From positions 1 to 31,908 of IMG/VR virus record IMGVR_UViG_3300003873_000039: a stretch of DNA of 31,908 nt, one strand, 5' to 3'. This DNA comes from a virus. Of this stretch, positions 2,451 to 31,908 are shown piece after piece; position 1 is the stretch's first letter, and each line of letters starts with the position of its first letter. Under the pieces are notes generated by a model. The model saw only the letters and a list, made by a program, of their open reading frames with translations, was not told the origin of the DNA and did no database searches. Made by a program: the position numbers and the translations under genes.

Positions 2451-5400
2451 TTATGCTCCCCACAAGGTCATATTTAGTCTCTGTCTATCCCAGTGGGTAT
2501 CTTTTGCCATCATTATCATTCGATGTGGCCCAGGATCGCCGCCGGGTAGCTCATTGCTTTCAAACATTACAAGATCGCCCGGCTCTAAACGAAGCAGTCG
2601 CATGTTAGATTCACATTGAATAATTCGCCGACCATCTTTATGCCGTGCAAGATAGTCGCTCGAAATCAAATCAAGCTCAGACAACGGTACATTCCATTTG
2701 TCGCGAAATTCGTTCATCACAACAACTTTGTAATCATCAATTGACTGCGCATCAAAAACAGCTTCACCATCTGCGAAATTGGAAGTGTTATTTCCCAGAC
2801 CGTCCCAGGCTGTCAGCGTTATTGCCCCGTTTTTCAAATCTGACCAGCCGCGCTTGTAGTGAACTTTTTCAGAGATGTCGCTGTCTGTAATAATCTCAAT
2901 CGGCATATCAGTCGAAAGAGGTTCGACAACAAGTGAGATTTTTCCTTTTCGCATAACAAATTGAGCTTCAAGAATGTAAGCAAGCTCAGCCAGCATGGCA
3001 TCAGCAGATGTTGGCTTTTCTATAATGCGACTCGCAGTACGATTCGGAAAACGAGTTTTGGCATTCACGATTGAATCAAGATCGATTCTGTTTGTCTGCA
3101 CGTTTATTCTGTTTGTAAATATATCGATAATTATATCTGCGACATGCCATTCGACTCCGCCATTTGTTCCTGACGTGTAATCAACAGGCATCCAGATCGC
3201 GCCGGTTTTCTTCCATGTTACATTATCAGAACCGGGCAAGATATTTGTGTTCGCGACAAGGGCAGACCATGCCGAAGTCCCGGAAATGATAGTGTCACCG
3301 ATTTTGTAAGCTTTCGTGCCTGACCAAGATGGGTGCTTAACATTCGGGATTTTCACATCTTTCAAGTCAAGCGGGTCTTGAATGATAAGTGTGTATTTCC
3401 CTGACGCGTATGACATATCAAGAACAGTTCCCGCGTAAACATCAACAGACGATTCAATGTCAGCATAACCAAATCGAATAACAACTTCAGCACCTAGAAG
3501 CTTTTTAGACATCAGGGCATCAATATGACGATCAGCAACAAAAGTGGCAGTCGCTTTACCAACCATGCTTGTTGCGATTTTGGTTTTTAGCTGAGCAGGT
3601 GATATGCGAACATCAGCCAGAGCTTTCACACCACCTTTTCTCAGCCGCTTGTATGTTTTCGGCATCAAGGGAAGCTGCCAAGGCATCGGAAATGCTGTGT
3701 AATATTCAGTACCAAGCGTTGTCGAATGAGTCCCAATTACAACAGGAGAAAGCCTAAAACCCACACCAACTTTACCGATTTCAGGTGCTATATCATTAGA
3801 TGAATTGGAAGTAAGTTCGATTTTTATTTTCCAATACCTGTCAGCAGGTAGCGTTTGAGTTTGCGCAAAAATCGTATCATACGTTCCGAAAAACGTCAGA
3901 TTTGCAGTACCCGCCGCCGCTGCAACTACAGGATCAGCAGTATGCCACAGCGATAGCTTAGCAGTAGTGCCAGCCGGAACTATGTCGATAAGCTCAATTG
4001 CACCATCAGTGATTGGAACTTGATTAACATCAAGAGAACGCACAAGCGAACCGGCATCAGCATAGCCCTCATTCCCGCCAAGAGAAAAACCATCCTGACC
4101 GCTGACACGGATATGCCATGGCGATTTCAGTACAGTAAAAGCACCCACCGAAATTGTAGCAGCATATGTAGCCACGCCGCCCTGAGCACCGCCCATGGCA
4201 TGAATATCCGGTTTACTGTACCCAACTTCAAGAGAGTACGACCGGGAGCGAATTAGTGAAGCTCCAAAGCCGACAACAGTAATAGAACTCCAGTCCGACA
4301 CATTCACCGAAAATGTTATTTGTTTTCCAATCTGATTGCCTTTTTCATCAAGAAAACGGGCATACCAACCAGGAAAAATATTGCCCGAATGTTTGGCTAA
4401 TATGACAAGCTTATTTGCAACGATTGTCGCGTTAGATTTGAATTTAAAAATCTGGCCAGGTTGGTCAATATCTGTCACATATTCATAAGAATCATGAACA
4501 TATTTACGACCTTTCCAAGAGAATTTATGATGATAATGATCAATAACCCTGCCCTGCCATTTGCTCACCCAAGATTTGACAGGCGTGTAATCAAGTGGCC
4601 GCTGAAACATACCAGCAGCCAAACCCATCATATACGCGCTGCCGATTTTATACATCTGACCCAGCGGCCCGATTGTTCCCGCTGAGCTTCCGACTTCCCA
4701 TATTACAGCATCAGCAGACTGCAAAAAGTCGTTCTTATCAGTTGAAGCAAAGTAAACGCCATCGATGTGATTGAAAGCCACGAAACTGCCCTGTGCAGGC
4801 GTTTGAATAAGTTTCCAAGCTGCGCCAGTCGCTGAAGTGTAGAGCTGCCCTGCATTCCCCCTCACAAGCCACAGCCCACCAGCATATTTACTGACAGACA
4901 TCGTGAAACCATTCGGGATAGCCATCGCAGTAAATGAAGCTCCTTCATCCGTGCTGTATGCTGAAGCCTGGGTGCCGTGCAGAATCACGTTAGCCCCGGC
5001 AACCCCCATGCCGTATCCAGTTGTCCCAACTCCATACAAATAATTCCAAGTTACAGCATCAGTTGAATTATAAACCTTGCCGCCATTTGTCATCATGAAA
5101 AATTTAGAATTACCCGCGCCAAGCCCAACAATATTACCGCCGCTAAAAAACAAACCGCCTGCAATGCTCCAATTTATTCCGTTCGAGCTGGTGTAAGTGT
5201 AATATACACCACCTGAGAGGCCCATCGCTATAAACCCTTTAGACGGTGAATATGCTATGCGCTGAACAGTACCTGACAGAACTTGAGTGAAGTTTATGCC
5301 ATCAGTTGAACGCTGAATGCCACCTGACACGCGGTAAATGATGCCACCATATTCGACAGTAGAACGATAATCCCCGGCTTTTATATTCTGCCAGACCGGC

Positions 5401-5642
5401 TTTATAAAAATTGATGTGGGTTCGACAAGATTTCCCGGAGAAAGCGTTATGCTTCCCGGCCTTCTATCAAAATCAATGTTCACATCACTGGCAACATCAG
5501 GATCATTCACGCCCACCCAATCGAATTTCTGATCAAGCTTCGCGCTTGGGCCTCTGTCAGCGTAAATATCAAGCCACATAGCAGGATCAACAGCTTTGCG
5601 ACTTCCCGCCCGGTTCAAAATATCTTGCTGAAGTTCAAGCAT
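2451..5642 (-). CDS. Large tail-tip protein with beta-propeller domain
   Basis: A 1063-residue protein. Residues 1-80 hold a conserved-looking start (MWLDIYADRGPS). Residues about 95-345 form a run of repeats with degenerate Asp-box signatures (STDGINF, SSNGINW, STDAVTW), expected to fold as a beta-propeller. The middle is beta-rich. The last 400 residues (SADAMLAELAYILEAQF..., ending MTLWGA) resemble C-terminal hub segments of siphovirus central tail proteins. Its likely place is at the distal tail, contacting the host. It overlaps the next propeller gene by 1 nt (TAATG). It is the largest gene in the window, as the tail-tip gene usually is. Confidence 0.7.
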   Translation of the reverse strand: MLELQQDILNRAGSRKAVDPAMWLDIYADRGPSAKLDQKFDWVGVNDPDVASDVNIDFDRRPGSITLSPGNLVEPTSIFIKPVWQNIKAGDYRSTVEYGGIIYRVSGGIQRSTDGINFTQVLSGTVQRIAYSPSKGFIAMGLSGGVYYTYTSSNGINWSIAGGLFFSGGNIVGLGAGNSKFFMMTNGGKVYNSTDAVTWNYLYGVGTTGYGMGVAGANVILHGTQASAYSTDEGASFTAMAIPNGFTMSVSKYAGGLWLVRGNAGQLYTSATGAAWKLIQTPAQGSFVAFNHIDGVYFASTDKNDFLQSADAVIWEVGSSAGTIGPLGQMYKIGSAYMMGLAAGMFQRPLDYTPVKSWVSKWQGRVIDHYHHKFSWKGRKYVHDSYEYVTDIDQPGQIFKFKSNATIVANKLVILAKHSGNIFPGWYARFLDEKGNQIGKQITFSVNVSDWSSITVVGFGASLIRSRSYSLEVGYSKPDIHAMGGAQGGVATYAATISVGAFTVLKSPWHIRVSGQDGFSLGGNEGYADAGSLVRSLDVNQVPITDGAIELIDIVPAGTTAKLSLWHTADPVVAAAAGTANLTFFGTYDTIFAQTQTLPADRYWKIKIELTSNSSNDIAPEIGKVGVGFRLSPVVIGTHSTTLGTEYYTAFPMPWQLPLMPKTYKRLRKGGVKALADVRISPAQLKTKIATSMVGKATATFVADRHIDALMSKKLLGAEVVIRFGYADIESSVDVYAGTVLDMSYASGKYTLIIQDPLDLKDVKIPNVKHPSWSGTKAYKIGDTIISGTSAWSALVANTNILPGSDNVTWKKTGAIWMPVDYTSGTNGGVEWHVADIIIDIFTNRINVQTNRIDLDSIVNAKTRFPNRTASRIIEKPTSADAMLAELAYILEAQFVMRKGKISLVVEPLSTDMPIEIITDSDISEKVHYKRGWSDLKNGAITLTAWDGLGNNTSNFADGEAVFDAQSIDDYKVVVMNEFRDKWNVPLSELDLISSDYLARHKDGRRIIQCESNMRLLRLEPGDLVMFESNELPGGDPGPHRMIMMAKDTHWDRQRLNMTLWGA

Positions 5643-7234
5643 TAAATACTCTCTTCAAGTTGAAGTTTTAGTTTTCTAAATTCCGGAGTGATGAACGGGC
5701 TTTCAACTTTCCGACTCACATCACGAAACAAAACAGGCGAGCCAGCGTTTGTATCATCAAACTGAATAAAAAACGGATTTTTCGCTGTCAAAACAGTTGT
5801 TTTAAGTGTCTTTACATCAATTGATTCTTGAGAATCAAGAGCATTCCAAACCGGATTTACATGAATAGCATCAAATCTTCGCGACACGAATGCACGCCCG
5901 TTCGCGCTTGTAAATGTTGTCGCCTGGATTGCCAGCGACTCAGGATCGATTCCTAAATCAGGAGGGGCAATAGTGATAGCTGGCCCAGCGTATAGCTCCG
6001 GAATATTCACATCAGCTCCGGGGGTCTGTCCTGTAATCGTCAAGTTATAACGATAAAGATATGTCCGCCATGAAATATCAGTGATTCCCGCTGAAACAAA
6101 TACGCCCGCTCCAGTTTCGAGCGAGTAAACATCATAACCAATGTTATCAGCAGCAACCCACAGATCACCGTCAATCGATGACACTGAATCACCAGCATTA
6201 CCAGCGGCCATGTATGTTGAACCGTCATACGCAATGGCATTAAATACCTTGAGAACATCTTGATGAACGACAGTCCATAAGATGCCATCATATGACGCAA
6301 TCACACCGCCTGTGCATGCTGCAAAGAAACGAAGGCCATCAAACATCAGACCATTCAGCGAACCGATTCCAGCAACCGCCATGTTGGCTGAATTCCAGTT
6401 TGTGCCGTCATTCGAGTAAAGCGAATCGACAGCAGAACCAATAACGACCCTTGATATGCCTATCGTTATACTTAACAGGTTATCACTCACACCGGAAACA
6501 GATGGAAGCCATGACACACCATCCCCGGAAACAAGGATTACACCGGCATCACCAACACTGATGAAAGTCTCATTCACATTATGAAATAGAACATCATTGA
6601 GAGCAGTAGCTATTCCGCTTACTTGTGAAATCCAGTTGATGCCGTCTGACGATACAGCAACGAAACCGGCAAGTCCTACAGCCACATAAACGCCGTTTCC
6701 GTATGTAATTCCGCGCAATGCAGGAGCACCAGCAATCGCTACGCTTGTCCACACGGTTCCATCTATAGAATGATAAACAAGGCCGCCATCCCCAACAGCA
6801 ATCCAAGCCCCATTTATGAATTTCACATTGTGAACAGAAGATGCCAAGCCGATAGCCTGCCAGCCCGCCGGGATAATTGGGGTATGTGCTGAAACAGGGA
6901 AAACCTCTGAAGCTGATTCAGGAGTTGTGATTTGTGAATTCAGTATGCTTGCCCATCCTTGAGCTGTGAAAGCGTCAAGCTTTACAGTACCTGAAGCGGG
7001 CTTGAATCCGATTGAGTCATTTCTGTTCGCGCCTATTAGGATATAATCAATCAGTGGGGAAACAACAGATAGCGACAGCTTTACGCTGCCAGAACCATCG
7101 GCAATCGGTTTGAATGTGCTTGATGTATCACCATCGCTAAGATTAGATAGCGGATATGCGGGGTCTTCAGTCCCAATAATTAGTGATACAAGTGATGCAG
7201 CAATCTGATTATCGTGAAAAAATCTAACACTCAT
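5642..7234 (-). CDS. Tail protein with Asp-box beta-propeller
   Basis: A 530-residue protein. Between about residues 120 and 375 there are six regular repeats with an S-x-DG-x-x-W signature (SIDGTVW, SSDGINW, SGDGVSW, SNDGTNW, SYDGILW, SIDGDLW). These Asp-box repeats typify sialidase-like and related propellers. The flanks are beta-rich. Glycan or surface binding is a reasonable guess. I see no catalytic signature, so enzyme activity is not claimed. The gene lies between tape measure and tail-tip genes, which suits a distal tail role. TAATG overlaps occur at both ends. Two dispersed 15-bp motifs lie inside (6572-6586, 6821-6835). Confidence 0.7.
   Translation of the reverse strand: MSVRFFHDNQIAASLVSLIIGTEDPAYPLSNLSDGDTSSTFKPIADGSGSVKLSLSVVSPLIDYILIGANRNDSIGFKPASGTVKLDAFTAQGWASILNSQITTPESASEVFPVSAHTPIIPAGWQAIGLASSVHNVKFINGAWIAVGDGGLVYHSIDGTVWTSVAIAGAPALRGITYGNGVYVAVGLAGFVAVSSDGINWISQVSGIATALNDVLFHNVNETFISVGDAGVILVSGDGVSWLPSVSGVSDNLLSITIGISRVVIGSAVDSLYSNDGTNWNSANMAVAGIGSLNGLMFDGLRFFAACTGGVIASYDGILWTVVHQDVLKVFNAIAYDGSTYMAAGNAGDSVSSIDGDLWVAADNIGYDVYSLETGAGVFVSAGITDISWRTYLYRYNLTITGQTPGADVNIPELYAGPAITIAPPDLGIDPESLAIQATTFTSANGRAFVSRRFDAIHVNPVWNALDSQESIDVKTLKTTVLTAKNPFFIQFDDTNAGSPVLFRDVSRKVESPFITPEFRKLKLQLEESI
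6572..6586 (+). promoter_or_regulatory. Dispersed 15-bp motif ATTCACATTATGAAA
   Basis: Inside the propeller tail gene; one of two oriented copies that face against local transcription. Encodes FHNVN. Confidence 0.65.
6821..6835. promoter_or_regulatory. Dispersed 15-bp motif TTTCACATTGTGAAC
   Basis: Symmetric copy in the same tail gene; encodes VHNVK. Confidence 0.65.
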
Positions 7235-12838: not shown

Positions 12839-13780
12839 TTAGTTGCTTATGTCAGTCAGACGGGCAAGGCCTTTGCGATTGAAGCATGCAAAGTTCGCAT
12901 ACATCTTGACGCGATATAGCTCAGCGTCCTGATTTTCCATTTCGCCAATCGCTTTCACAGTGATACCCGCAGGGATTGTTTCAGGATGAATACCAGCGCA
13001 ACCAATCTTGCGTGAACCGTCATCGAACACACCAGCATAGACCGAAGCCAATGCACCACCGGCAAGAGCAGCCCCGCCCGCAGTTTCAACGATAGACAGA
13101 AAATCATTTCTGAAAACCGGAATCCCTTCAAAAGCCAGCACAGTGCGACCATCCGGGAGTGTAACCTGTTCCAAGGTGTTACCCGGCATAGCCCGCAGCA
13201 ACGCTTTGTAGCTGAAGAAAGTGCGCTTCGGCATAGCGATGAAGTCAACTTCACCATCCTTGGAAACCACGTTCCCGCACAGATTATCCAGATCGTCAAA
13301 GGTAAGTGCGCCACCGCCTGCACCAGCGTTTACACCGGCAATGGTCTGACCTACATCAGACATACCCGCAAGGGAGTTCATCTGAGGTAACGCACCATTG
13401 CCAGTTGCCATACCACCCTGAAACTGACGGCCAACAGATTTCGCTTTAGACGAAATTTCACGAGCAGCGGAATCAACACCAGAACTGCCAGATGTTGCAA
13501 CTTCCAAGCCATCAAGCTCAGCATCACCAACAATTTTTGTCGATTGGAAATTGACAGGAATGACTTGCGATGGATTTTTATGAGTGATCGTATCACCAAC
13601 ATTATAAAAACCAGAATCACCCATTACAAGTTCACGATTCACAACGATTGCTTGTCCCTGATAACCGTCAAAGGGCAATGCGCCAAAAAGTGGATTGACA
13701 GCAATGATGTCTTCCGCAACGCCTGCAACGATGTCATCGTTTATATATTTGGCAGCCTCTGCCAGTGTTTGAACAGCCAT
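12839..13780 (-). CDS. Major capsid protein
   Basis: A 313-residue protein that follows the scaffold gene (across the cargo cassette) and has the composition of HK97-fold capsid proteins. It has an N-terminal helix (TLAEAAKYINDDIVAGVAEDII), an E-loop-like stretch (NPSQVIPVNFQSTKIVG), a helix (AAREISSKAKSVGRQF), and a P-domain-like region (FIAMPKRTFFSYKALL). It ends with strands and helices (ENQDAELYRVKMYANFACFNRKGLARLTDI). There is no cleaved N-terminal delta domain, which suits a separate scaffold. The SD AGGAGG is very strong, as expected for the most abundant virion protein. Confidence 0.85.
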   Translation of the reverse strand: MAVQTLAEAAKYINDDIVAGVAEDIIAVNPLFGALPFDGYQGQAIVVNRELVMGDSGFYNVGDTITHKNPSQVIPVNFQSTKIVGDAELDGLEVATSGSSGVDSAAREISSKAKSVGRQFQGGMATGNGALPQMNSLAGMSDVGQTIAGVNAGAGGGALTFDDLDNLCGNVVSKDGEVDFIAMPKRTFFSYKALLRAMPGNTLEQVTLPDGRTVLAFEGIPVFRNDFLSIVETAGGAALAGGALASVYAGVFDDGSRKIGCAGIHPETIPAGITVKAIGEMENQDAELYRVKMYANFACFNRKGLARLTDISN

Positions 13781-14016: not shown

Positions 14017-14083
14017 AAAAGCACATAAGTATATATATTCTATTATATTAAGTTCTATTAGTTAAACGGTTTTCAACTCGTAG
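14017..14083 (+). repeat. 67-bp dispersed repeat, copy A
   Basis: Matches 26174-26240 at 60 of 67 positions with no gap. It starts AAAAGCACAT and ends CTCGTAG. Both copies are non-coding and AT-rich. Copy A lies between an HTH gene and the capsid gene. Confidence 0.85.
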
Positions 14084-14190
14084 ATGGAAGCTATTGAAAT
14101 GAAAGGGATTTTTTTCAGAGTAATTTTTTGTGTTTTTTTGAAGATGATGAATTTTTATTATTTTTGGATGATTTAGTTGGAGAGTCATTT

Positions 14191-14210
14191 AACTAAAATA
14201 ACTTTTAGTT
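14191..14210. repeat. Perfect 8-4-8 inverted repeat
   Basis: AACTAAAA-TAAC-TTTTAGTT overlaps the start of repeat copy C. It could be a protein-binding site; the stem is all weak pairs except two, so RNA structure is less likely. Confidence 0.5.
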
Positions 14211-14237
14211 GAACGGTTTTCATCTCGTAGATGGAAG
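14203..14237 (+). repeat. Dispersed repeat, partial copy C
   Basis: Repeats the last part of copy A (TTAGTTGAACGGTTTTC, then CTCGTAGATGGAAG) about 145 bp downstream. The A and C copies extend together past CTCGTAG for about 7 bases, whereas the early-region copy diverges there. Confidence 0.7.
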
Positions 14238-14271
14238 GTGTTGAAATTAAAGGTCTTTTTTATGGATATGA

Positions 14272-14286
14272 TTTCACATTATGAAA
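14272..14286 (+). promoter_or_regulatory. Dispersed 15-bp motif TTTCACATTATGAAA
   Basis: A full match to the consensus, placed directly downstream of the terminator of the HTH cargo gene (in minus-strand reading). It is one of two oriented copies pointing against local transcription. Confidence 0.75.
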
Positions 14287-14287
14287 C

Positions 14288-14310
14288 AAAAAGCCCGACA
14301 AAAGCCGGGC
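14288..14310 (-). terminator. Terminator of the HTH cargo cassette
   Basis: On the minus strand GCCCG...CGGGC closes a short loop and is followed by TTTTTG. It lies just past the stop of the HTH gene, closing the three-gene cassette. Confidence 0.8.
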
Positions 14311-14317
14311 AAATCGT

Positions 14318-14572
14318 TCATCTTTGGCATTCGACTATCTTTTTTGCTGCATATTCAACGTCAGCGCATTCGAGTTTCTTTGCAGTGTAAAGTGCAGCAA
14401 TAGGGGCGCAGACAGACCGCACATTTTTTCGCGGGGATTTCCTACCATTTTCCCAGTCTGAAATGCGCTGGAATGGAATTGGATCGCTTCGCCCAAGCTC
14501 TTTAGCTAACCAAACCCCAAAAGCTTCTTGAGATAGATTGAGTGCTGTTCTTGTTGTCGATATAACATTCAT
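14318..14572 (-). CDS. XRE-type HTH protein (cargo cassette)
   Basis: An 84-residue protein whose residues about 8-50 read as a Cro/CI-type helix-turn-helix (LNLSQEAFGVWLAKEL...IPFQRISDWENGRKSPRKNV). The C-terminal 30 residues are helical with two cysteines. It has no protease or dimerisation domain of the CI type, so it is a small one-domain regulator. Its ATG overlaps the stop of the previous gene (ATGA). It may control the cassette's own promoter or be the antitoxin-like partner of the upstream genes. Both ideas are inference. Confidence 0.75.
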   Translation of the reverse strand: MNVISTTRTALNLSQEAFGVWLAKELGRSDPIPFQRISDWENGRKSPRKNVRSVCAPIAALYTAKKLECADVEYAAKKIVECQR

Positions 14573-14718
14573 TGTTGCTCCTGATTCCCACCATGCTCAT
14601 ATTCTTCAATAAATTCATCAAAAGAACATCCGCACAAATTTCCAACGAAAATATAAGCATTTAAATTAACATTGAATTCATAAACACCGTCATTAACTAA
14701 TCTATATTGATCTCCCAT
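14569..14718 (-). CDS. Small acidic hypothetical protein (cargo cassette)
   Basis: A 49-residue protein (MGDQYRLVND..., ending GGNQEQQ), acidic, with a CGC pair and SFDEFIEEYEHG near the end. The SD GGAG lies 9 nt before the ATG, and the stop overlaps the HTH start by 4 nt. Strongly AT-rich codon use matches the gene upstream and differs from the head genes. The family is not recognised. The tight packing supports a real gene. Confidence 0.65.
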   Translation of the reverse strand: MGDQYRLVNDGVYEFNVNLNAYIFVGNLCGCSFDEFIEEYEHGGNQEQQ

Positions 14719-14720
14719 TT

Positions 14721-15071
14721 TTATTTCTCCATTTTTACATATTCATATACACATAAATCTAAGTCATCATTCAGAAATGTAGTTCCTAAATTTGGTGTAT
14801 TTTTCTTGAAATCATTGCTTATTTTTGTGTGTAGAATTCTATTTTGATATGCATACATTCTCTCCACTTTTGCATGTAAGCTTGCCCATGAAATTTTATT
14901 TTTTTTGATAAAACTACTTATTGCAGACAACAGTTCATCATCTGAATGTGAGCCGTGTATAATTTCACTTATGATCATGTGATTGTTGTCTTGCTCTCTT
15001 GATGCACATTGTGAATTTGAAAGAAGTGATATTTTATTCTTCAGACATTCAAGATCGGTTACATTTTCCAT
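14721..15071 (-). CDS. Hypothetical protein (first gene of cargo cassette)
   Basis: A 116-residue, largely helical soluble protein of unknown family. The middle (SDDELLSAISSFIKKNKISWASLHAKVERMYAYQNRIL) looks like a helical bundle. Codon use is AT-rich, unlike the scaffold and capsid genes on either side, which suggests recent transfer. The SD GGAG precedes the ATG by 9 nt. A promoter at 15132-15159 sits just upstream. As the first gene of an independently transcribed cassette inside a head operon, it is a candidate for a lysogen benefit such as exclusion of other phages. That is inference. Confidence 0.7.
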   Translation of the reverse strand: MENVTDLECLKNKISLLSNSQCASREQDNNHMIISEIIHGSHSDDELLSAISSFIKKNKISWASLHAKVERMYAYQNRILHTKISNDFKKNTPNLGTTFLNDDLDLCVYEYVKMEK

Positions 15072-15131
15072 TTTCTATCTCCACACCCCGTCAGCCGGTG
15101 TCGCTATATTTTTCCCTTTCGGAATAACTGA

Positions 15132-15159
15132 ACACTACTCCTTTAAGAAGTAATGTCAA
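15132..15159 (-). promoter_or_regulatory. Promoter of the cargo cassette
   Basis: Minus-strand TTGACA (15159-15154), 16 nt spacer, TAGTGT (15137-15132). The -35 is perfect, the -10 moderate. It lies 60 nt before the first cassette gene. The nearest 15-bp motif is about 35 bp further upstream and does not overlap the promoter. Confidence 0.5.
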
Positions 15160-15193
15160 GCGTTAATTGTAATTTTTTTTACTACACCTTTGA

Positions 15194-15208
15194 TTTCACA
15201 AGCTGAAA
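15194..15208. promoter_or_regulatory. Dispersed 15-bp motif TTTCACAAGCTGAAA
   Basis: One mismatch in the second half-site. With 15245-15259 it brackets the terminator after the scaffold gene. Confidence 0.55.
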
Positions 15209-15213
15209 TAGAA

Positions 15214-15241
15214 AAAGGCCAGGAACAATGCCCCGGCCTTT
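15214..15241 (-). terminator. Terminator after the scaffold gene
   Basis: On the minus strand AAAGGCC pairs with GGCCTTT around a 14-nt loop, and the 3' arm continues as TTTTTC. It separates the scaffold from the cargo cassette. Confidence 0.7.
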
Positions 15242-15244
15242 CGG

Positions 15245-15259
15245 TTTCATTTTGTGAAT
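15245..15259 (-). promoter_or_regulatory. Dispersed 15-bp motif TTTCATTTTGTGAAT
   Basis: Reads ATTCACAAAATGAAA along transcription. It lies between the scaffold stop and its terminator. Confidence 0.7.
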
Positions 15260-15262
15260 CAG

Positions 15263-16003
15263 TTACGCTGCCTGTTTTGCTTTCAGCCCTCTTGCAATTC
15301 GGCTTTCGCCAGACACGTTACCACCTGGAGCTTTTCCACCTGTTGCTCCAGTTGAACCAGCACCGCCGCCAGATGCCTTAACAAAATGCAGATTCTCATC
15401 CAGAAAGGATTTCACATAACTTGCAACGGCCATCGGTTTGCCTGATTCATCCAGCGCAACTTTCCCATCAGCACCAAGCACTTCGACTGAGCCAGCATCA
15501 TTCAGACGCATCTTGGGTTTGAGTAGCGATGTGATTTGAGCTGGCTTGATAGCGTTGTTACTTGATGCCGCTGTGACGATTTCATTATCAATCAGCACTT
15601 CAGACAAACGCGATTCAAGCCCCTTGATTTTACCATTGAGGGATTCAACCTGAGTCGCGTGACGGCGTTCGATTTCGGCTTTTGCTTCATCGAACTTGCC
15701 CTTTGATGTCAGGTCATCTTGCTTGCGCTTATCAGCATCACTAATCAGATTCTTGATAGCATCTGCATCCAGATCGCCCAAAGTGTCCTTGAGTTCACGC
15801 AATGCAACGCGGTTACTTGCAGCATCACTTCGAGCGGACTTCAATTCATCCTTGAGCCGTGCGACTTCATCAGAGCCGCCCTTATCGCCATCGCCGCCCT
15901 TGTCGCCTTCACTATCACCAGAACCACCGGCAATATTCGGAACAACACCACCATCAGGCATGTGCCAGTACCTGCCAATCAAAATCGGTTTATCAACATT
16001 CAT
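15263..16003 (-). CDS. Scaffold protein
   Basis: A 246-residue protein. A Gly/Asp/Ser-rich low-complexity stretch near residues 26-45 precedes a long coiled coil (about 46-140, LKDELKSARSDAASNRVALRELKDTL...). A helix-rich segment and a basic C-terminus (SRIARGLKAKQAA) follow; the basic end would touch the capsid protein. This matches GP20-like phage scaffolds. The gene directly precedes the capsid in operon order, interrupted only by the cargo cassette. SD GGAGG is 8 nt before the ATG. It should guide procapsid assembly and leave the head, possibly with help from a protease. Confidence 0.75.
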   Translation of the reverse strand: MNVDKPILIGRYWHMPDGGVVPNIAGGSGDSEGDKGGDGDKGGSDEVARLKDELKSARSDAASNRVALRELKDTLGDLDADAIKNLISDADKRKQDDLTSKGKFDEAKAEIERRHATQVESLNGKIKGLESRLSEVLIDNEIVTAASSNNAIKPAQITSLLKPKMRLNDAGSVEVLGADGKVALDESGKPMAVASYVKSFLDENLHFVKASGGGAGSTGATGGKAPGGNVSGESRIARGLKAKQAA

Positions 16004-16107: not shown

Positions 16108-16509
16108 ATGAGGGTTATACTTTTGACCGTGGCGTTGTTGATGATAAATCCGGGGCATGTTGAAGCTAACAAATTCCTTGATGATCTGGCTAAAATGCCT
16201 CCATGCTATCAGTATGTTGGGGCACGGCCTCCTGGCACTACACATTGGACTGAACAAATGGTGGGATTTTATACCGAGCATGTCAGCCAGAAATTTGTCG
16301 ATACACACTCCCGACTTGAAATAATGATGACTTTAAAAACTCGTTTATTAAATCAATTAGACTCATTTGGAAAGATGAGCAAAAGGGAACACAAAAGAGA
16401 TATATGTATCATATCGAATGTCAGGTTTGACGATTTTGACCCTAAGCCTGGAGAAGGCTACTCAATGTCGATATTAGCAGATGTTATGTCAGCAGACTAT
16501 ATAAAATAA
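16108..16509 (+). CDS. Secreted hypothetical protein (lysogenic cargo)
   Basis: A 133-residue protein starting at ATG 16108, chosen for its SD (AAGGGAG) and because it opens a clean signal peptide: MR, then a hydrophobic core (VILLTVALLMINPG), then a likely cut after VEA. The mature part has two cysteines (PPCYQYVG; RDICIIS) that could form a disulfide in the periplasm. The family is not recognised. It is the only plus-strand gene among the late genes and has its own promoter, the hallmark of a moron. A role in the lysogen's envelope, such as blocking other phages or altering virulence, is plausible but unproven. Confidence 0.75.
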   Translation: MRVILLTVALLMINPGHVEANKFLDDLAKMPPCYQYVGARPPGTTHWTEQMVGFYTEHVSQKFVDTHSRLEIMMTLKTRLLNQLDSFGKMSKREHKRDICIISNVRFDDFDPKPGEGYSMSILADVMSADYIK

Positions 16510-25585: not shown

Positions 25586-26149
25586 ATGAAATTTGAAACG
25601 GAAGAAGAGTTAAAACAGCAAATCGGCAAAAATATTAAAGCCGCTATGGACAGCGCATCAATAAATGCGCGTCAGCTTGGCATTAAGCTTGATGCAACGG
25701 GAGCCGCAGTCGGATTGTGGCTTTCAGGCAAACGCGTGCCGAATATTTGGATCGCTTATCGCGCTGCTAAAATTCTAAATGTATCCCTAAATGAATTCTT
25801 TTTTGGCAAACAAACACTGCCTGTGATCGATGAAAAGGGGAATATTATTGATTCTTTTTCAATCCCTGAAAATGGAACAGACGATCTTTTTGCCATGCGT
25901 GTGCCAGCCGGAAACCGAACAAACAGCCCCATGATCGATCCCCTAGATATTGTGATTGCGAAAAAAACTGACTGCGCCAATGTTGATGATTATGTTATTG
26001 CTGAGCTACCTTGCTCCGGCCTGGCTGTGTTGCGTATCGATCAGGGATTCGGACAAATAAAATTCAGCACAGTCAGTGGCGATGCTCCAGCGAACAGCAA
26101 AGATATTATCATCAAAGGTGTTGTAACCGGGACATATCGCAGGTTCTGA
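25586..26149 (+). CDS. CI-like phage repressor
   Basis: A 187-residue protein. Residues about 12-70 form an XRE helix-turn-helix (SINARQLGIKLDATGAAVGLWLSGKRVP). The C-terminal half has the beta layout of the S24/LexA dimerisation domain (MRVPAGNRTNSPMIDPLDIVIAKK; DDYVIAELPCSGLAVLRIDQG). The expected G-D-S-M is replaced by TNSPM (Ser114), and the catalytic Lys by Arg150 (AVLRI), so self-cleavage is doubtful. It should hold lysogeny, divergent to the leftward promoter. It is the best candidate to bind the dispersed palindrome. SD is GATGGGG. Confidence 0.8.
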   Translation: MKFETEEELKQQIGKNIKAAMDSASINARQLGIKLDATGAAVGLWLSGKRVPNIWIAYRAAKILNVSLNEFFFGKQTLPVIDEKGNIIDSFSIPENGTDDLFAMRVPAGNRTNSPMIDPLDIVIAKKTDCANVDDYVIAELPCSGLAVLRIDQGFGQIKFSTVSGDAPANSKDIIIKGVVTGTYRRF

Positions 26150-26173: not shown

Positions 26174-26240
26174 AAAAGCACATATGTTTATATATTCTAT
26201 TCTATTAAGTTCTATTAGTTGAATGGTTTTCTTCTCGTAG
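26174..26240 (+). repeat. 67-bp dispersed repeat, copy B
   Basis: 60 of 67 bases match 14017-14083. It lies 25 bp past the repressor stop and ends in CTCGTAG, the motif that recurs at 26350 and 26372. Confidence 0.85.
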
Positions 26241-26349
26241 TAGTAAGTGCTTAATATATAATCTATTTTTCAGATTTCTATTTTTCGTCATTTTTCGTGC
26301 TATCGGGCTTCGACTTTCTATCATTTATATTTAATCATCGTTATTTCTA

Positions 26350-30743: not shown

Positions 30744-31643
30744 ATGAAAGAGGAATTGGCTTACTTCGCAGGGCTTTTTGACGCTGAAGGCTGTATCTCA
30801 TCATCAAAAAGGAGAGGTAATAAAGCTGCTGTATCTGTCAGCTTCTCAAACTGCGATTCACGCTTGGCAGGCTTCGCCGCTGGCATGCTTCACGGTGATT
30901 TATCGTTTTCGGACAGACCGAATCAAATGAGGGAATACACTGTGAAGGTGTGTTCCGAAAATGCGCTTAGTGCTCTTAAAATAATCAAGCCATATCTATT
31001 GATTAAGCGTCAACAAGCTGAAATAGCTATAAACTTTCCCGTCATCCCATTGCGCAGGATCAAGAATCATGATTTGATTTCACTTTATGAAATTGACTTT
31101 ATGAAAAATGCTCTGTTTCAGCTAAACAAACACCCGATGCACTTCTATTCACAAAGTGAAATCAAAAGGATGCTCGAAATCCAATCAGGTGAAATTCCAG
31201 AACGATGGAAAGAAAGGCCGGAGATTGCAGCATCATATATCGCAGGCCTTGTTGATGGCGATGGAACTTTTGTCATACCTTCAAAGCTCACATCATTTTC
31301 GCCGTCAATCTCAATCAGCAGCCGGCATTTGCCAGCTATACTTGAAATAAACAGGTATCTTATATCTATCGGTATAATGTCAAAGATTCAGTCTTGCTAC
31401 GATAAGCGGGGATACAATACGACTTACGCTGTACGCGTATTCAGTAGCAATGCTGTAGAGCTTGCTCATTTGATTGCATCGCGTCTTATCGCCAAAAAGG
31501 ATCAGGCGTTACTTATGGCCAGCCTTGCGCCCTTGTTGCGAAGCAGAAACGGCACGCGCGTTCCAGATACAATGCGTAATGATCGTTATAAGGCAGCAAC
31601 GAGAATGAAAAAGCTCAACAGCAGATTCAGAACAGTAAAATAG
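30744..31643 (+). CDS. LAGLIDADG homing endonuclease
   Basis: A 299-residue monomer with two LAGLIDADG helices: LAYFAGLFDAEG (5-16, acidic residues Asp13/Glu15) and SYIAGLVDGDG (164-174, Asp171/Asp173). Each is followed by a beta-rich half, giving the usual pseudo-dimer that cuts a long specific site. It is not inside an intron or intein that I can see; it is a free-standing gene between int and attP. Two dispersed 15-bp motifs lie in its coding region. Confidence 0.85.
   Translation: MKEELAYFAGLFDAEGCISSSKRRGNKAAVSVSFSNCDSRLAGFAAGMLHGDLSFSDRPNQMREYTVKVCSENALSALKIIKPYLLIKRQQAEIAINFPVIPLRRIKNHDLISLYEIDFMKNALFQLNKHPMHFYSQSEIKRMLEIQSGEIPERWKERPEIAASYIAGLVDGDGTFVIPSKLTSFSPSISISSRHLPAILEINRYLISIGIMSKIQSCYDKRGYNTTYAVRVFSSNAVELAHLIASRLIAKKDQALLMASLAPLLRSRNGTRVPDTMRNDRYKAATRMKKLNSRFRTVK
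31078..31092 (+). promoter_or_regulatory. Dispersed 15-bp motif TTTCACTTTATGAAA
   Basis: A full consensus match inside the endonuclease gene, oriented with transcription; encodes SLYE. Confidence 0.75.
31147..31161. promoter_or_regulatory. Dispersed 15-bp motif ATTCACAAAGTGAAA
   Basis: A near-symmetric copy 69 bp past the previous one, in the endonuclease gene; encodes SQSE. Confidence 0.7.
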
Positions 31644-31657
31644 CTGTTTTGAATTAA

Positions 31658-31677
31658 TTTTGTCGCCATTTTGTCGC
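31658..31677 (+). promoter_or_regulatory. Integrase arm-type site pair (int side)
   Basis: TTTGTCGCCATTTTGTCGCC, two direct 10-bp units in the same orientation as the pair at 31880. The tRNA-like core lies between the pairs, which is the layout of an attP. Confidence 0.6.
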
Positions 31678-31879: not shown

Positions 31880-31908
31880 TTTGTCGCCATTTTGTCGCCG
31901 GGGTCAAA
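31880..31908. repeat. Terminal direct repeat, second copy
   Basis: Identical to bases 1-29 and includes the second arm-type pair (31880-31899). Confidence 0.85.

Follow-up and report, generated by a model that had tools for sequence, protein, structure and literature searches.

The window analysed here, one whole IMG/VR virus record of 31,908 nucleotides, carries a minus-strand operon of three genes (116, 49 and 84 aa) between its scaffold and major capsid genes. The question this locus raises is what such an operon does at a junction where, in most viral contigs whose capsid is related, scaffold and capsid genes directly adjoin and the cassette is absent, an adjacency that a sequence-only reading of the window had already taken to be the normal state. 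That reading had also proposed that the cassette serves to exclude other phages.

Anatomy and variability of the cassette

The 116-aa and 49-aa genes are separated by 2 nt and the 49-aa and HTH genes overlap by 4 nt (ATGA), and terminators were found at both ends of the cassette. The cargo genes have a GC content of 0.30-0.31, compared with 0.44 for the HTH gene and 0.49 for the scaffold and capsid genes. The tight, AT-rich operon with a terminator on either side that the sequence-only reading had described is thus borne out. The parts of the cassette and its flanks are as follows.

12839-13780, minus strand: major capsid gene, cassette flank (phrog_212, E 2.1e-42)
14272-14286: 15-bp dispersed near-palindromic motif, 3' side of the cassette
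14293-14310, minus strand: terminator 3' of the HTH gene (fold z -2.9; 98% identical in the closest relative, L002)
14318-14572, minus strand: 84-aa HTH_3 protein, putative Aca-type autorepressor (Pfam HTH_3, E 3.4e-4)
14569-14718, minus strand: cargo gene 2, 49 aa, acidic, pI 4.1 (45-aa homolog in the L078 cassette)
14721-15071, minus strand: cargo gene 1, 116 aa, predicted with low confidence to be helical (replaced in L002)
15072-15131, minus strand: conserved structured 5' leader (covariance model R1, folds)
15079-15082, minus strand: ribosome-binding site of the leader, GGAG
15083-15101, minus strand: leader hairpin 2 (folding)
15112-15124, minus strand: leader hairpin 1 (folding)
15132-15137, minus strand: weak -10 element TAGTGT, placed by its spacing
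15136-15152, minus strand: putative operator, 6-5-6 palindrome TACTTC-TTAAA-GGAGTA, filling the spacer between -35 and -10
15154-15159, minus strand: -35 element TTGACA (GCTTGA invariant in six promoters)
15194-15208: 15-bp dispersed near-palindromic motif, 5' side of the cassette
15213-15242, minus strand: terminator at the boundary of scaffold gene and cassette (fold z -3.3; 97% identical in L002)
15245-15259: 15-bp dispersed motif directly before the 5' terminator
15263-16003, minus strand: scaffold gene, cassette flank (phrog_206, E 2.9e-25)

Over 23 kb, L002 and the window are collinear, with about 85% of the DNA identical; the capsid protein of L002 is 92% and its scaffold protein about 90-92% identical to those of the window. 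All of that span is matched apart from the cargo and an ORF of 152 aa at another position: L002 carries an unrelated 79-aa gene in place of the 116-aa and 49-aa pair, and the two cargoes could not be aligned above shuffles. The non-coding surroundings of the cargo are well preserved, the promoter and leader being 93% and the terminators 97-98% identical, and because this conservation persists despite a dS of about 0.4-0.8 in the genes neighbouring the cassette, we consider these parts to be under constraint. The HTH gene, at 82% amino acid identity and a dN/dS of 0.14, is by this comparison under purifying selection. The cargo has thus been swapped between a conserved leader and a conserved HTH gene, and this exchange, with the absence of the cassette from other relatives, agrees with the earlier view of it as cargo and not as part of the phage core. 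A second accessory gene (16108-16509, plus strand), on the strand opposite to the head genes and encoding a hydrophobic, signal-peptide-like N-terminus, is missing in L002, where there is a 68-bp gap.

The 116-aa and 49-aa proteins gave no family match in searches that included Pfam and phrog, and neither they nor the 79-aa protein of L002 had a sequence match in the PDB. When the 116-aa, 84-aa and L002 79-aa proteins were used as single-sequence queries against viral contigs, phages and genome contigs, nothing but L002 was returned. Structure prediction for the 116-aa protein reached a pLDDT of 62, and the fold search based on it was uninformative, its empty result carrying no weight. The 49-aa protein is homologous to a 45-aa protein encoded by L078 (phmmer about 3e-18, 27 identical residues).

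The sequence-only reading had described the cassette as bracketed by 15-bp motifs. Copies of this near-palindrome, TTTCATnnTGTGAAA, do lie at 14272, 15194 and 15245, and they are members of a genome-wide set of about 20 sites (22 matches against 3.2 expected; for example 376, 6572, 14272, 15194, 17795, 20342, 24057, 24130, 25555 and 31078). Seventeen sites can be aligned in L002, and 10 of these show full conservation, the expected number being 4.3. The cassette promoter is free of the motif, which is compatible with, though no demonstration of, the expression in the lysogen that the sequence-only reading considered likely. It is more likely that these are general repressor or stoperator-like sites than that they are parts of the cassette. 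One copy lies directly upstream of a CI-like repressor gene (25586-26149).

Several other features of the genome were recorded. Non-coding, AT-rich repeats containing the palindrome CTCGTAG occur at 14017-14113 and 14202-14261 (before the capsid gene) and at 26174-26270 (after the repressor gene); both arms of the palindrome have changed together in L002, from CCATCTACGAGATGG to CCTACTACGAGTAGG. Their resemblance to Cas12a repeats was judged not convincing, and this candidate was dropped. A LAGLIDADG homing endonuclease gene (30744-31643, plus strand) lies directly 3' of the integrase gene. A 29-bp direct repeat, TTTGTCGCCATTTTGTCGCCGGGGTCAAA, is identical at 1-29 and 31880-31908, with a partial copy at 31659, and has the signature of a complete genome or of an attachment site.

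Control elements and their relatives in other phages

The -10 element of the cassette is weak, and a consensus scan does not report the promoter. We nevertheless accept the promoter as real because both L002 and more distant cassettes conserve it, and the TTGACA promoter proposed from the sequence is to that extent upheld. Six promoters from five elements (the window, L002, L078, L074 and two in L075) have a 17-bp palindrome between -35 and -10. By itself the window palindrome has a P of 0.03, and an unguided palindrome search of the window and L002 promoters alone gave no significant result; it was accepted only once the distant promoters showed the same geometry. The arms pair at 5 of 6 positions in the window and in the first L075 promoter, at 4 of 6 in L002, and at all 6 in L078, L074 and the second L075 promoter. 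The arms in L074 differ in sequence from the others on both sides, yet they pair.

All six promoters are followed by a two-hairpin leader ahead of the ribosome-binding site. The covariance model R1, when built without L078, recovered L078 at E 1.1e-12; Rfam contains no such family, and blastn with the L075 leader found no copy in phage and plasmid records. Covariation within the hairpins comes to one compensatory pair, which is not significant by itself. RNA-level control through the leader is a possibility, and Aca2 reportedly binds RNA in addition to DNA, which we take as a lead.

The predicted structure of the HTH protein was of low confidence (pLDDT 66), and the fold search was uninformative, its empty result constituting no evidence. 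A profile built from two HTH sequences found no match in 369 genomes of one class. In a phylum-wide sample the HTH profile gave four strong matches (E 4e-25 to 1e-11), all in one class, and an enlarged profile also picked up the viral contig L078. These distant homologs, L074 to L078, close variable operons in unrelated prophages.

In L078 the order is leader, an 89-aa gene, the 45-aa gene and HTH, inside the head cluster. L075, a relative of L078 (portal 87% identical at the amino acid level), has its cassette at the same head-cluster site, in the order leader, 113 aa, second leader, 152 aa and HTH; the terminase, portal and capsid of both differ from those of the window. The L074 order is leader, 113 aa, 137 aa, PAPS reductase, ParB-like protein and HTH. 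This leader and HTH-family operon (3431-6397) adjoins an integrase, and its PAPS reductase appears as a DndC/BrxP-like region in PADLOC. The HTH gene of L076 shares an overlap with a 105-aa gene, and no leader was found there. The leading genes bear no resemblance to one another. The occurrence of the cassette type at other loci, on which its nature as cargo could be checked, is thus seen in the L074, L075 and L078 phages.

Possible functions of the cargo

As judged from these comparisons, the cassette is probably a swappable operon of Acr-Aca design in the head-gene cluster, carrying counter-defence cargo under repression by its HTH protein. On entry of the phage DNA into the cell, a strong promoter would drive a burst of synthesis of one or two small proteins acting in counter-defence (116 and 49 aa in the window), after which the HTH protein, the product of the last gene, would bind the palindrome inside the promoter and shut the operon down, perhaps also acting on the hairpin leader over the ribosome-binding site. 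The terminators would separate the cassette from head-gene transcription and in this way protect the late genes. The cargo would most likely be anti-CRISPR, or else act against another defence.

The link to CRISPR concerns the sister cassettes of L075 and L078, not the window phage. L075 has a solitary type I-F CRISPR repeat of 28 nt (6804-6831, plus strand) between its 152-aa and HTH genes, on the strand opposite to them, and 27 of the 28 positions agree with the repeat of a CRISPR array in another genome of the same class. Next to that array are a match to Cas1 and a series of genes laid out like a type I-F cas operon; the I-F subtype was assigned from the repeat sequence and this gene layout, without a typing tool. 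Directly 5' of the solitary repeat is TTGACC-17-TACGAT, apparently a promoter of its own, and directly 3', on the same strand, are a degenerate second repeat and a terminator. The L075 repeat is thus a candidate RNA anti-CRISPR. In addition, the portal genes of L075 (28/30) and L078 (27/30) are both matched by a CRISPR spacer from a genome of that class. The window cassette itself matched neither the 13 CRISPR repeats tested nor the type I-F pattern, and none of 223 extracted spacers matched the window phage. Of 78 genomes of the class, 30 have Cas1, among them 3 of the 4 that carry the HTH family, an overlap too small to count for much on its own. The capsid profile, searched in the class of the HTH relatives, gave no match.

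The proposal that the cassette excludes other phages found no specific support. It would make the locus a lysogenic-conversion (moron) cassette, whose small proteins, made in the lysogen, exclude phages while the HTH protein keeps their dose low. The cassette's own promoter and terminators, its AT-rich cargo and the freedom of the promoter from the dispersed motif all accord with this, but no membrane or secreted-protein features were noted in the cargo sequences, and the exchange of cargo above a conserved HTH gene, the palindrome, the niche shared with JBD30 (below) and the I-F repeat of the sister L075 cassette point to counter-defence instead. We therefore regard a moron function as unlikely.

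Less probable again is a toxin-antitoxin system in which the 116-aa (or 49-aa) protein is the toxin and the HTH protein both antitoxin and autorepressor. A small gene followed by an HTH_3 gene is the order such a system would have, and the L002 HTH protein is weakly similar to the HTH antitoxin families NadS, Y4mF and MqsA. The partners should co-vary, however, yet the HTH protein is 82% conserved beside an unrelated partner, and the cargo showed no match to a toxin family, on which membership among such systems would rest. Loss of the HTH gene could be toxic under the Acr-Aca design as well, because removal of an autorepressor would be harmful.

That the small proteins aid capsid assembly and the HTH protein times the late genes, as the position between the scaffold and capsid genes might suggest, is very improbable, given that the cassette is missing from most relatives sharing the capsid, that unrelated inserts (a 544-aa protein in L018, a 226-aa DNA-methylase-like protein in L024) occupy the same junction, and that the cassette type sits elsewhere in L074, L075 and L078.

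Within the counter-defence interpretation, the L074 cargo suggests that the cassette platform carries other functions too; with a PAPS reductase and a ParB-like protein on board, the cargo need not be anti-CRISPR. A broader proposal, which we offer tentatively and as somewhat short of an even chance, is that the promoter, operator and leader together with the HTH gene form the docking site of a new mobile counter-defence platform, through which unrelated phages of one bacterial group swap protein and RNA anti-CRISPRs and other cargo, with the leader RNA adding a second tier of regulation by the HTH protein, at translation.

The HTH family and its leader would provide a new handle for association-based discovery of anti-CRISPR genes, and the candidates at hand are the unmatched small proteins whose genes precede the one for the HTH protein in the window, L002, L078, L075 and L074. 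A leader shared across unrelated phages and outside Rfam allows a direct test of whether a hairpin beside the ribosome-binding site controls anti-defence operons, and a protein cassette and a CRISPR-repeat mimic on one platform would join protein and RNA anti-CRISPRs in one regulated locus.

Comparison with known anti-CRISPR systems

In acr-aca operons small acr genes are followed by a gene for an HTH protein that acts as repressor of the operon via a palindrome in the core promoter; every Aca family tested has its operator there (PMC9410906). Judged by its anatomy, the window cassette matches this arrangement point by point, except for a proven Acr.

The acrIF1-aca1 operon of the Pseudomonas phage JBD30 (NC_020198) lies between gp34 and the protease gp37/capsid gp38 genes (PMC11445458). 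Like the window cassette, it has small cargo followed by a short HTH gene, overlapping frames, and its own promoter with palindromes, placed among head genes (PMC11445458). No sequence similarity was detected, however, between the HTH proteins (hhalign probability of the window protein with Aca1, 0.4%), the palindromes differ, and the window cassette has two genes of cargo and a conserved hairpin leader that is longer.

As RNAs, solitary phage CRISPR repeats are inhibitors of CRISPR-Cas, and they occur in clusters with acr genes (PMC10651486). These Racr elements resemble the L075 cassette in having a solitary I-F repeat with an apparent promoter and terminator of its own; the repeat belongs to L075, not to the window cassette.

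With Aca1-Aca10 (PMC9410906) the window shares a short HTH protein encoded by the last gene and a palindrome in the core promoter, its HTH_3 domain being of the type found in Aca3, 5, 6, 7 and 9 (PMC9410906). The window cassette differs in its long conserved leader, and a search of the PDB with the HTH profile (E up to 10) returned no Aca chain among its matches.

AcaFinder defines short operons by genes on one strand, proteins of <200 aa and gaps of <250 bp (PMC9765179), and the window operon, with its 116-, 49- and 84-aa proteins, minus-strand genes, 2-nt gap and 4-nt overlap, falls within these limits. For an Aca, the last gene should encode an HTH protein of <150 aa with an HTH model match at E < 1e-3 and coverage of >40%; the window HTH gene is last and encodes 84 aa, with E 3.4e-4 and 33 of 55 model positions (60%) covered. 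The inverted repeat expected of an Aca operon is present as the 6-5-6 palindrome in the spacer of six promoters, stronger in the relatives. Judged against Aca1 and the Aca chains in the PDB, the HTH protein is probably an Aca-type repressor of a new family.
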